A DNA stretch of 36,526 nucleotides from Ignavibacteriota bacterium (GTDB taxonomy: Bacteria > Bacteroidota > Ignavibacteria > UBA10030 > UBA6906), in assembly GCA_016218065.1 (NCBI GenBank), contig JACRFA010000224.1, positions 1 to 36,526 of the forward strand, read 5' to 3'. A program made the translations under genes and the position numbers. A model generated the notes under the pieces. The model had not been told where the DNA came from, searched no databases, and saw only the letters and a program-made list of their open reading frames with translations. Below, piece after piece: positions 12,586 to 32,991 of the stretch (positions are counted from its first letter, which is position 1; each line of letters starts with the position of its first letter).

Positions 12586-13239
12586 TTAGAATTTGTATTG
12601 AACGCCGACGCGAGCCTGCGTAATCATGCTGACATCGGGATCGTTGTGGATGAATGTGCCTTTCAATTCGGTATGCAGATTCAGCCAGTAGGCAAGCTGG
12701 ATGTCGGCGCCGGTTACCAGGCCGAGCGCCAATCGCGTGTGGCCGCCAACGTCGTAGTACACGTACCGGACGCCGTTGATCATCTGCTTGTACGAAGCCT
12801 CGCTGATGAACTCAGCTCCTATCTGCACACTGACGAACGGCCTTGTGGTGTACCCGGGAAAGAATGAATATGTCGCGTCGAATGAGACGTTGCCCAGAAT
12901 GAGATTGTCTTTCGCTTTCAGAGGTACGCCCGGCCATCGCTGTGCGAATGCCATCTCATCAAAATACAATAGCGCGATATCAGTCGAGAGGCCGAACGCC
13001 AGGTACGAGTCCGCAAAAATCTGGAAGCTCGCCTTCCCGCTCACGCCGTTGAGCCAGTAGTCAACCAAACCGGTTCTGCCGACCGGGATCGCCATGCCGA
13101 CTGACGCCGCGATTACGACACGCTGCGACTGTCGCGGACGAAGTTGCTTTCCCTGATATTGTTGTGCAAGCGCCGGCATTGCGGCCGGAAGCGCAAAGAT
13201 GAGCACAAGCAAGAGATGCTTGCATTCTCGCCAAGTCAT
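12586..13239 (-). CDS. outer-membrane beta-barrel-like hypothetical protein
   Basis: Signal peptide [27 protein letters not shown]; alternating aromatic/hydrophobic beta-strand character; C-terminal RVGVQYKF. Confidence 0.65.
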
Positions 13240-13321
13240 GTTTCGTCTCGTGAAAGAAAACTGAGAATAGAACTTGGATCAATATACGAATGTTGTGAAC
13301 GTGATTCCAACGGAGTAGAGG

Positions 13322-13506
13322 TGGAGATTCCCCATCGAACTGCATAAGAAACTGTCTTTCTGAGTCTCGCTTTACAGAGGCGAAGAATCCAGAAACCCGT
13401 ACTGGATTCTTCACTCCGTCCCGACTTGGGAAGCAGTCTGGACTCCGTTCAGAATGACAATCAAAAGATGTCGAGATGATTTTCTGGCGTTTTCGGGAAT
13501 CTCCAA
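13322..13506 (+). mobile_element. MITE-like element, copy 1 (TIR TGGAGATTCCC; 9-bp TSD GAGTAGAGG)
   Basis: Ends TGGAGATTCCC...GGGAATCTCCAA. Flanked by GAGTAGAGG at 13313-13321 and 13507-13515. Near-identical interior to 30511-30714 (inverted). Confidence 0.85.
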
Positions 13507-13834
13507 GAGTAGAGGAGCCTAACAACAGAAACGGGCAACTTTGAACTGGGCTGCCCGGTATTGATTCACAAAATCCTCCGCTTTGTTGTTTGATTTCGAC
13601 TATTGTCTGTCTCCGGTCAACACCAAGCCACGTTGAATGCCGACGCTGCAATGCGCCCCGACGGCAATGACAGTCTTCTGACCCGTCATTGCAATAGAAT
13701 AGAACACGTGTGCGGGGAGTATTTTGGACAGCAGTGGTCAACGATCATCGGTCAATTGTCAACGATCAAGGCATCGCACGGCAAACCGATTTTTCCTATT
13801 TTGTCCAACAACATTTCACCAACAATACTCGTCT

Positions 13835-29826: not shown

Positions 29827-30423
29827 TTATTGGATTGGTGGATTTGCTCTGCTCGCTATCTTCCTCATGACTGCATCGATCCTCTGCCTTACTTTCTTGT
29901 AGTCGATGTTCTTCCAACTCTCAAGTAAGGGAAGAAAACTCGCGTCGGCACGCTGCTCAAGCTTGGCCAGAAGCAGGAGAATCATCTCTCGGTTTCGATC
30001 TTTCAGGAATGTCATATCGAACCCGCGTTCGCCGCTGGAAGCCATCAGGCAAAGCCGGTCGAAGAGTTCTTCGGCATACGTTTCCCTTTCGATTTCCCAG
30101 CCCAACGGACTGTAGCAGAGCAAAGGAAGCTTGCCACTGTATTCATAGTCGAGATAACAGTGATCGATGAGCCAATCAATCTTTGACGTGATCTCATCGA
30201 TAGTCAAGTCGTGGAAGTGTCCATAGACAGGACTCTGATCCAGTCCATGCTCAAGTACCGACTTCTCGCGAGATCCTTTCAGAATTCTCGCGAGGAGACC
30301 TCTTCCACCCCGGCCGATGAGTTCATCGGCGCCGCGAAGAATCGTTTTGATTTCAGCGAAGGGTAATTGTTTCGTCCGCTCGGGATGGAGATAGACCGGA
30401 CTGCGTTGAATTCGTCTGCTCAT
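29827..30423 (-). CDS. RQC-minor-type (RecQ C-terminal winged-helix) DNA-binding protein
   Basis: MSRRIQRSPVYLHPERTKQLPFAEIKTILRGADELIGRGGRGLLARILKGSREKSVLEHGLDQSPVYGHFHDLTIDEITSKIDWLIDHCYL matches remembered RQC-minor family pattern. Confidence 0.75.
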   Translation of the reverse strand: MSRRIQRSPVYLHPERTKQLPFAEIKTILRGADELIGRGGRGLLARILKGSREKSVLEHGLDQSPVYGHFHDLTIDEITSKIDWLIDHCYLDYEYSGKLPLLCYSPLGWEIERETYAEELFDRLCLMASSGERGFDMTFLKDRNREMILLLLAKLEQRADASFLPLLESWKNIDYKKVRQRIDAVMRKIASRANPPIQ

Positions 30424-30510
30424 GTTCGAACAGGATTCTGGAGAGATCGACTGACCCGTGGACCCGGTTCAGGATCGAGAAATCGGAATCAAAAATCAAG
30501 TGTGCGTCGT

Positions 30511-30714
30511 TGGAGATTCCCGAAAACGCCAGAAAATCATCTCGACATCTTTTGATTGTCATTTTGAACGGAGTCCAGACTGCTTCCCAAGTCGGGACGG
30601 AGTGAAGAATCTCGACGAGTCGAGTCATCGACCAGTACGGGTTTCTGGATTCTTCGCCTCTGTGAAGCGAGGCTCAGAAAGACAGTTCTTAGGCAGTTTC
30701 GATGGGAATCTCCA
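30511..30714 (-). mobile_element. MITE-like element, copy 2 (TIR TGGAGATTCCC; 9-bp TSD GTGCGTCGT)
   Basis: Ends TGGAGATTCCC...GGGAATCTCCA. Flanked by GTGCGTCGT at 30502-30510 and 30715-30723. Interior is the reverse complement of copy 1 apart from an indel of about 20 bp. Confidence 0.9.
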
Positions 30715-30747
30715 GTGCGTCGTCCTGATCCTTCTGAATCCTGGACC

Positions 30748-32991
30748 TTAATCCACCGAACCTCTTTCTCCGAAGCGCCGCAGTCGCAGTGAGTTACTCA
30801 CCACGCTCACCGAACTGAACCCCATCGCGGCTGCTGCAATCATCGGATTGAGCAAGCCCAATGCTGCAAGCGGAATGCCGACGACATTGTATGCGAATGC
30901 CCAGAAGAGATTCTGCTTTATCGTCCGCGACATTGCCGAGGACAAGCCGATCGCGTGCACAATGCTCTCCAGGTTGCTGCGCATCAGCGTTATGTCGGCT
31001 GCTTCCATTGCGATGTCTGTTCCCGATCCGATAGCAATACCGACATCGGCTTGTGCCAGCGCTGGCGCATCGTTGATGCCATCACCAACCATTGCGACGA
31101 CCTTGCCTTCCGCTTGAATCGACTTCACATGCCGTGCTTTGTCGTGCGGAAGAACCTGCGCAAAGACGCGCGTGATTCCTGCGTGCTCAGCAATGGCCTG
31201 TGCTGTGCGGGTGTTATCGCCCGAGATCATGATCACTTCGCGCCCCATCTTCTGCAGACGGTCAATCGCTGAGCGGGATGTTGGTTTGATCTGATCGGCA
31301 ACAGCCAACACGCCCGCAACCTTACCATCAATCGCCACGATGATGGGCGTCTTCCCTTCGGTTGAGAATTGTTCGACAAATTTACGTTCGCCGTCCAGAT
31401 GGACGGCATATTCCTCCAGCAGACCGATGTTGCCGATGAGTGCAGGCATCCCATCAACAACTCCCGCGATGCCAAATCCTGTCAACGACTGAAAAGCGTC
31501 CAACTCGGAGAGCTGCACATTGCGCCGCGACGCGTAGTCCACAATGGCGCGACCCAACGGATGCTCGGACCGTCGCTCCAGAGAAGCCGCCGCATGCAAA
31601 ACTTCTTCTTCTTTGAATCCATTGAACACGCGCACGTCGGTAACGGCGGGTTTCCCTTCCGTGATCGTTCCAGTTTTGTCGAGGATGATTGTTTGGACTT
31701 TGCTCGCGCGTTCAAGACTTTCCACTTTCCGGATGAGAATGCCAAGACTCGCGCCTCTACCTGTACCGACCATGATTGCTGTCGGCGTTGCAAGTCCGAG
31801 CGCACACGGGCAAGCAATAATCAGAACGGCAATGAAGTTGATCAGCGAAGGAGTGAACCCGATACCGCCGACAACATACCAGAGAACAAACGTGATGATT
31901 GCGATCCCGACGACTGTCGGCACAAAGACGGCAGCGATTTTATCCGCGAGATTTTGGATCGGCGCTTTGGTCGCTTGCGCGTCTTCCACGAGCCGGGCAA
32001 TCTGCGCAAGCATCGTGTTCTTCCCGACAGCCGTTGCACGAAATGTGATGGTTCCGTTTCCGTTGAGCGTTCCGCCGAGAACTTTGCTGTCGGCATTTTT
32101 TTCGACCGGCATGCTCTCGCCGCTCATCATCGATTCATCGACCGTCGTATTGCCGCTCACCACAACGCCATCGACGGCAATCTTCTCGCCGGGACGAACG
32201 ACGACCATATCGTTCACAACCACATCATCGATAGGAATGTCCTTCTCGTTCCCATCACGAACAACTCTCGCGATCTTCGGCTGCAAGTTCATGAGCTTCC
32301 TGATCGCATCCGATGCGCGGTTCTTCGCTCGAGCTTCGAACATCTTGCCGAGAAGAATAAGTGTGATGATTGTCGAAGCCGTATCGAAGTACACATGCTG
32401 CGCGTGCGCGGCATGCCCGAGCCACTCAGGGAACAGAGTTGCCACGGTGCTGTAGGCATACGCCGAGCCGGTTCCGACGGCAACGAGGGTGTTCATTTCA
32501 GCTGTGAAGTGCTTCAGGTTCGTCCAGAAGCTCTTGAAGAAGCGCTTGCCCGAGATGAACAGGACAGGCGTCGTCAACACAAGGAGAATCTTGTTCACCT
32601 GATCCAACGACAACGGAGACCAGCTCGGAAACGATTCCAGCATGGAGAGCATGCTAATGATCATCACCGGAATGGCGAACGACGCGCCGATGAGCAGCTC
32701 TTTGCGAAATTGCAGATACGAAATCTCCTGCGGCGACTTGTCAAGACTTTTCGTTTCGTCCTTCGGAGCAACAAGCGTGTAGCCCACCTCTGCAACGGCA
32801 GACTGGAGTTGCGCTACACTCACCTTCGCAGGATCGAAACTTATCGCAGCCTTTTCAGTCGCAAGATTCACCGACGTCTGCTCAACACCATCGACTTTCT
32901 TCAGCGCTTTCTCGACGCGCGCCACGCAGCTCGCGCACGTCATCCCTTCAACAGGAAGGCTGAGAGTCTCGTGTGTTCCCTTCTTCTCCAT
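30748..32991 (-). CDS. copA: copper-translocating P-type ATPase
   Basis: N-terminal HMA (VEGMTCASCVARVEKAL), IIACPCALGLATPTAIMVGTG, ILDKTGTITEGKP, SEHPLG, MVGDGINDAPAL. Confidence 0.97.
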   Translation of the reverse strand: MEKKGTHETLSLPVEGMTCASCVARVEKALKKVDGVEQTSVNLATEKAAISFDPAKVSVAQLQSAVAEVGYTLVAPKDETKSLDKSPQEISYLQFRKELLIGASFAIPVMIISMLSMLESFPSWSPLSLDQVNKILLVLTTPVLFISGKRFFKSFWTNLKHFTAEMNTLVAVGTGSAYAYSTVATLFPEWLGHAAHAQHVYFDTASTIITLILLGKMFEARAKNRASDAIRKLMNLQPKIARVVRDGNEKDIPIDDVVVNDMVVVRPGEKIAVDGVVVSGNTTVDESMMSGESMPVEKNADSKVLGGTLNGNGTITFRATAVGKNTMLAQIARLVEDAQATKAPIQNLADKIAAVFVPTVVGIAIITFVLWYVVGGIGFTPSLINFIAVLIIACPCALGLATPTAIMVGTGRGASLGILIRKVESLERASKVQTIILDKTGTITEGKPAVTDVRVFNGFKEEEVLHAAASLERRSEHPLGRAIVDYASRRNVQLSELDAFQSLTGFGIAGVVDGMPALIGNIGLLEEYAVHLDGERKFVEQFSTEGKTPIIVAIDGKVAGVLAVADQIKPTSRSAIDRLQKMGREVIMISGDNTRTAQAIAEHAGITRVFAQVLPHDKARHVKSIQAEGKVVAMVGDGINDAPALAQADVGIAIGSGTDIAMEAADITLMRSNLESIVHAIGLSSAMSRTIKQNLFWAFAYNVVGIPLAALGLLNPMIAAAAMGFSSVSVVSNSLRLRRFGERGSVD

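Follow-up and report, generated by a model that had tools for sequence, protein, structure and literature searches.

A family of short, gene-free inverted-repeat elements that appears to insert at a fixed distance upstream of predicted promoters in an Ignavibacteria-like genome

Within the prokaryotic Mutator superfamily, two branches have been described that insert specifically into the DNA upstream of promoters (Guerillot et al. 2014, PMC3942029). Those elements are flanked by direct repeats (DRs) of 8-9 bp and insert in an oriented manner upstream of the -35 box of sigmaA promoters (PMC3942029). The inverted repeats (IRs) of p-MULT elements are 18-39 bp long, and those of the TnGBS type keep a distance of 15-17 bp to the -35 (PMC3942029). 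In p-MULT 3 the IRs are asymmetric, which has been linked to orientation, and end in a conserved terminal C; most members have the IRr towards the promoter, and this orientation was explained by the unequal IRs (PMC3942029). In the literature that we searched, p-MULT 3 and 4 were the only groups credited with insertion in register with promoters. The element described below appears to share this kind of insertion site, and it carries no gene.

The window, i.e., the whole stretch of 36,526 nucleotides analysed here, is one contig (C164) of a 5.17-Mb assembly in 319 contigs of an Ignavibacteria-like genome (G000), and contains two copies of the MITE. Copy 2, for which a preliminary description had proposed an element with 11-bp TIRs, was confirmed at positions 30511..30714 (forward strand). 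It is 204 bp long, has no coding capacity apart from spurious ORFs, and ends in perfect 11-bp TIRs: TGGAGATTCCC at the E5 end (30511..30521, forward strand), followed by GAAAACG, and the same sequence at the E3 end (30704..30714, reverse strand), preceded by CGATG. The target-site duplication GTGCGTCGT is found on both the left (30502..30510) and the right (30715..30723), with a core of 7-8 bp as judged by comparison with the family. Copy 2 is predicted to fold into a strong, long hairpin (about -77 kcal/mol as RNA), and searches with the element in Rfam and among plasmids returned 0 matches each. The upstream neighbour of copy 2 encodes a CopA-type P1B heavy-metal ATPase (30748..32991, reverse strand), of which the best relatives belong to Bacteroidetes/Ignavibacteriales MAGs. 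The gene downstream of the targeted promoter encodes an RQC-domain protein of 198 aa (29827..30423, reverse strand) and starts 87 nt from copy 2. Its putative -35 TTG (30497..30499, reverse strand) lies 11 nt from the E5 end, which is the family's fixed distance but in the minority orientation, and its predicted -10 region, GATCCT (30471-30476, reverse strand), is weak, being among the weakest of the 20-copy set described below.

Copy 1 (13322..13505, reverse strand; 184 bp) is 86% identical to copy 2 over the full length and lies in the opposite orientation. It is flanked by the target-site duplication GAGTAGAGG at 13313..13321 and again, on the other side, at 13507..13515. A putative -35 TTG (13308..13310, reverse strand) is located 11 nt from the E3 end, a putative -10 TATATTG follows at 13280..13286 (reverse strand), and downstream of this promoter is an ORF of 217 aa without a Pfam match (12586..13239, reverse strand). 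The exact TIR occurs four times in the window, at the ends of the two elements. When one mismatch was allowed, five matches were found against 0.64 expected, a number that none of 100 shuffled windows reached.

A search of the whole genome for like elements recovered 61 aligned stretches, corresponding to some 30 elements between 184 and 550 bp long, namely 20 copies with target-site duplications and about 10 degraded ones. The exact TIR is present 31 times in this genome and 2-10 times in each of 20 family-level relatives, and the full MITE was found in none of these 20. The relatives hold only the inner motif (GTCATTCTGAAC...GAAGAATCC and its complement), around which the TIRs are absent. 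Since the relatives have the inner motif without TIRs and no full element, the family is, on these comparisons, species-specific, with a core repeat that occurs widely across the order. This order-level inverted repeat, GTCATTCTGAAC...GAAGAATCCAG, makes up the MITE's interior (30545-30680 in the window; also L059, L060 and L061); it also exists without TIRs and is broken by small palindromes such as TCTCGACGAGTCGAG. Among the copies with target-site duplications, pairwise identity has a median of 80% and reaches 95% at best, which indicates that the expansion is old and repeated, as far as sequence divergence can tell, and not one recent burst. Two long copies, L009 (G000:C212:6160-6655) and L016 (G000:C261:23451-23997), contain a nested block of ~300 bp at the same internal position, composed of the serial mini-hairpins AGACCATAAATGGTCT, CCGTCCCTACGGGACG, CCACGTAGTGG, CGACCTTTCAAGGTCG and CCGTCGCGTAGCGACGG. 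As they share this block and differ in their flanks, each with its own repeats, such decorated long versions appear to have moved as a unit. Another locus (L286; G000:C192, E3 end near 2539) is a MITE remnant, of which the E3 end faces TTGACA...TACAAT; it lies downstream of a gene with a GroEL-like GGGMGDMY tail.

The flanks of 27 candidate copies were compared, and 19 of them matched at 7 or 8 of 8 positions. When the left flank of one copy was paired with the right flank of another as a control, 0 of 702 combinations reached this level. The register between the flanking repeats in the 20 copies was 9 nt in ten cases, 10 nt in eight, and 8 and 11 nt in one each. Beside the 5' end, the outermost base agrees in just 3 of 20 copies, i.e., at chance level; at the other end, a C directly follows CCA in 15 of 20. 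The simplest reading is that the duplication comprises 7-8 bp (8 being modal when outer matches are counted), with the element's own terminal base at one or both ends. Copy 2 happens to match at both outer positions. Thus, the perfect 9-bp duplication given in the preliminary description holds at copy 2 but not across the family, where the core is 7-8 bp. Because of this shorter core and the non-duplicated base beside the TIR, the 9 bp of copy 2 are, by comparison of the copies, partly a coincidence and not diagnostic of a 9-bp cutter.

Lining up the flanks brought out a second regularity, which concerns promoters (predicted throughout from sequence motifs). In every one of the 20 copies with target-site duplications, at least one end has a TTG at positions +11 to +14. 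Eighteen copies fill this slot at the E3 end and six at the E5 end, copy 2 and L019 having it at the E5 end only. A -10 at the appropriate spacing (TTG-N20/21-TAnnTT) accompanies it in 15 of 20. From the genome background, the TTG slot would be expected to be filled in 8% of cases and the complete TTG/TAnnTT motif to occur in 0.06%. The presence of TTG on either side in 20 of 20 has a binomial P of about 5e-17 against that background. Offsets 11-14 of the E3 flank hold 18 TTGs, compared with a total of four at offsets 1-10 and 15-29. The offset tracks the length of the duplication, so that core and TTG are separated by 3 nt in 16 of 18 cases at the E3 end and in 5 of 6 at the E5 end (21 of 24 overall), even though the duplication varies in length. 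As the pattern was first seen by inspection of these flanks, we tested it on ten E3 ends outside the set; TTG was present at +11 to +13 in six of them, where 8% would be expected (P = 4e-5). Eighteen of the 20 copies have their E3 end towards the promoter. Beyond the promoter there is usually a gene start in the right direction, for most copies at a distance of 40-130 nt from the element, and the downstream genes include those for GAPDH and the RQC-domain protein as well as the 217-aa ORF.

Motif counts and element-free sites were examined in G001, the single genome of a sister species, of which 1.55 Mb (37%) was sampled. There, the 130-nt regions upstream of genes contain 1.29 motifs per kb and coding sequence 0.07 per kb, a 19-fold difference; the opposite strand of the upstream regions has 0.29 per kb, and scrambled-motif controls gave 0.13-0.20 per kb. 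At the two orthologous loci that fell within the sampled part, L022 (GAPDH) and L009, the promoter is conserved in G001 and the MITE is absent. The GAPDH promoter, TTGACA..TAGATTG (TTGACATTCAAGGCATTTCTTGGTAGATTG), is the same as here, and that at the L009 locus reads TTGTTTTTC...GTATATTT. Enrichment upstream of genes, the gene starts that follow, and conservation in the sister genome without the MITE together indicate that the TTG/TAnnTT motifs are (predicted) promoters of the host rather than parts of the element. The preliminary description had called for a check of empty sites in relatives; these two loci lack the MITE in G001, but the sequence upstream of the insertion has diverged there too far to yield a base-perfect empty site. 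For copy 2, an empty site was also sought, and the RQC-domain gene itself proved to be absent from both genus mates. That gene is present in only one of the 20 family-level relatives (G007, 59% identity), where it does not adjoin copA; such patchy presence suggests loss or horizontal transfer, judging from its distribution in these genomes.

We sought the parent element by near-exact TIRs and by five transposase models (PF01609, PF12762, PF00665, PF00872 and NF033572). No copy of the MITE contains a transposase, and no autonomous partner with the same TIRs, the full-length IS that the preliminary description suggested looking for, was detected among the exact and one-mismatch TIR matches listed for this fragmented assembly, the one-mismatch list covering contigs up to C128. 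The sole TIR pair of IS length among these matches (C73, 768 bp) lies inside two coding genes and was dismissed as chance, as was a 1.3-kb pair in G117. PF01609 (IS4-type) has a single match, on C150, with the unrelated TIRs CACTACTGTCCAACT, and the single PF00665 match has no exact TIR on either side. PF12762 gave 0 matches in the genome, IS1595 being absent, and no ISKra4-type transposase was found in this genome. Two transposase genes of the Mutator superfamily matched PF00872, and each lies close to the end of a contig: one of IS256-variant type, cut by the contig end (C22:3-860), and one MULE-like (L254, C138:12194-13324), 154 bp from the contig end. No matching TIRs surround either gene. 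The stop codon of L254 overlaps a promoter-like TTGACA-N17-TACTTTG, and a different frame seems to encode its N-terminal zinc-ribbon part, a situation like that of frameshifted transposases. The parent element may be unassembled, diverged or lost.

We consider it probable that a DDE transposase acting in trans inserts this species-specific MITE at a set position immediately ahead of sigma70-type promoters. The family copies, their duplications, the lack of a transposase in any copy and the element-free sister sites bear out the initial view of a non-coding, MITE-like element moved in trans. On the proposed scheme, the transposase would recognise the TIRs, make the promoter-proximal cut 3 bp before the -35 TTG and the distal one another 7-8 bp (9-10 at the most) away from the promoter, and repair of the gaps left by the stagger would produce the duplication. 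Strand transfer would be positioned relative to the promoter-bound polymerase or sigma factor, and the orientation bias of 18 of 20 fits unequal recognition of two TIRs with differing inner parts. The enzyme thus seems to locate promoters by means of a molecular ruler, and we infer that it does so by contact with promoter-bound RNA polymerase or sigma factor. Targeting at a fixed distance from promoters points to the Mutator/IS256 superfamily (p-MULT) by analogy, since this is the only bacterial DDE group that we found reported with promoter-upstream specificity. We also entertain, as a tentative extension that is somewhat doubtful, a promoter-seeking machinery that has not been described so far, of which the nick is locked 3 bp from TTG, the stagger is variable and the spacing is unlike the ruler of TnGBS and ISKra4. 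As the nick would be locked while the stagger varies, sigma factor or RNA polymerase, and not the target sequence alone, would position strand transfer in such a system.

Several observations could be accommodated if a transposase of another family (IS66, ISL3, ISAs1 or an unknown group) had come to read the promoter or polymerase independently of the Mutator superfamily. Several of these families give 8-bp duplications, the TIR searches yielded no parent, the exact TIR of the MITE is short, its distance to the -35 is unlike that of TnGBS, and the sole PF01609 and PF00665 genes attest that other IS types are present in the genome. Nevertheless, the TIRs of the PF01609 element are unrelated, the PF00665 gene has no exact TIR, IS1595 is absent, and reports of insertion in promoter register are confined to p-MULT 3 and 4 in the literature searched, so that we regard this origin as rather unlikely. 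The assignment to IS1- or IS4-type transposases in the preliminary description, drawn from the 9-bp repeat, is not supported and appears highly improbable: copy 2 has a perfect 9-bp direct repeat, but the modal duplication is 8 bp, the position beside the 5' end matches at chance level family-wide, flush 9-bp duplications are not consistently present, and the only PF01609 (IS4-type) IS ends in CACTACTGTCCAACT. To our knowledge, promoter-register insertion is not known for the IS1 and IS4 families. Random insertion followed by selective survival of copies just upstream of promoters is hardly credible either. Intergenic locations are generally tolerated and the core promoter would stay intact, but selection by itself would yield neither a constant 3-nt gap with duplications of varying length nor an orientation bias of 18 of 20.

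If gene-free elements indeed target promoters, recognition of the promoter is a property of the transposase and the element ends alone. The 20 insertions may then be taken as natural footprints, the outer cut pinpointing -35 boxes with single-base precision, and such MITEs could serve for promoter mapping in uncultured bacteria. The fixed 3-bp register makes the proposed contact between transposase and polymerase testable with a minimal substrate of 200 bp. The site just upstream of the -35 may be a low-cost niche, as the core promoter is unbroken; insertion there may also replace upstream regulatory DNA such as UP elements and activator sites.

Among non-coding elements, Correia/NEMIS, ERIC, RUP (PMC2229807) and MITEAba12 (PMC6382973) resemble the present MITE in being short, in having TIRs, target-site duplications and a hairpin, and in their mobilisation in trans. 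Most of them have TA termini, unlike the MITE here, and MITEAba12, with 9-bp duplications at AT-rich sites, carries putative outward promoters instead of seeking those of the host (PMC6382973). The IS256 family (p-MULT 1), represented in this genome by the IS256-like gene on C22, belongs to the Mutator superfamily and makes 8-9 bp duplications, but its insertion is reported to be random (PMC3942029), unlike that of the MITE, and no TIR match was found. Elements of the ISKra4 group (p-MULT 4) also insert upstream of promoters, which in some cases lie on either side of the element. Transposases like that of ISKra4 occur in order- and class-level relatives but not in this genome, and the two well-resolved examples have TIRs of GGG(G)TGTGCG..., unlike TGGAGATTCCC. 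A further likeness is to the TnGBS ICEs and ISLre2 (p-MULT 3), with which the MITE has in common oriented insertion (18 of 20) and an asymmetry of its ends, which are alike for 11-12 bp and then differ. Its duplications, with a core of 7-8 bp in most copies, come near the 8-9 bp of these elements, and a terminal C is present in 15 of 20 copies. TnGBS and ISLre2 carry their own transposase and insert 15-17 bp from the -35, whereas the MITE is gene-free, ~200 bp long and 11-12 nt from the -35, about 4 bp closer than TnGBS/ISLre2 and ISKra4. It further differs from TnGBS/ISLre2 in its short exact TIR (11-12 bp), in belonging to another phylum and in that no matching transposase was found. The kind of targeting is therefore known from the Mutator superfamily (TnGBS/ISLre2 and ISKra4), and what differs here is a gene-free element with a closer spacing to the -35.
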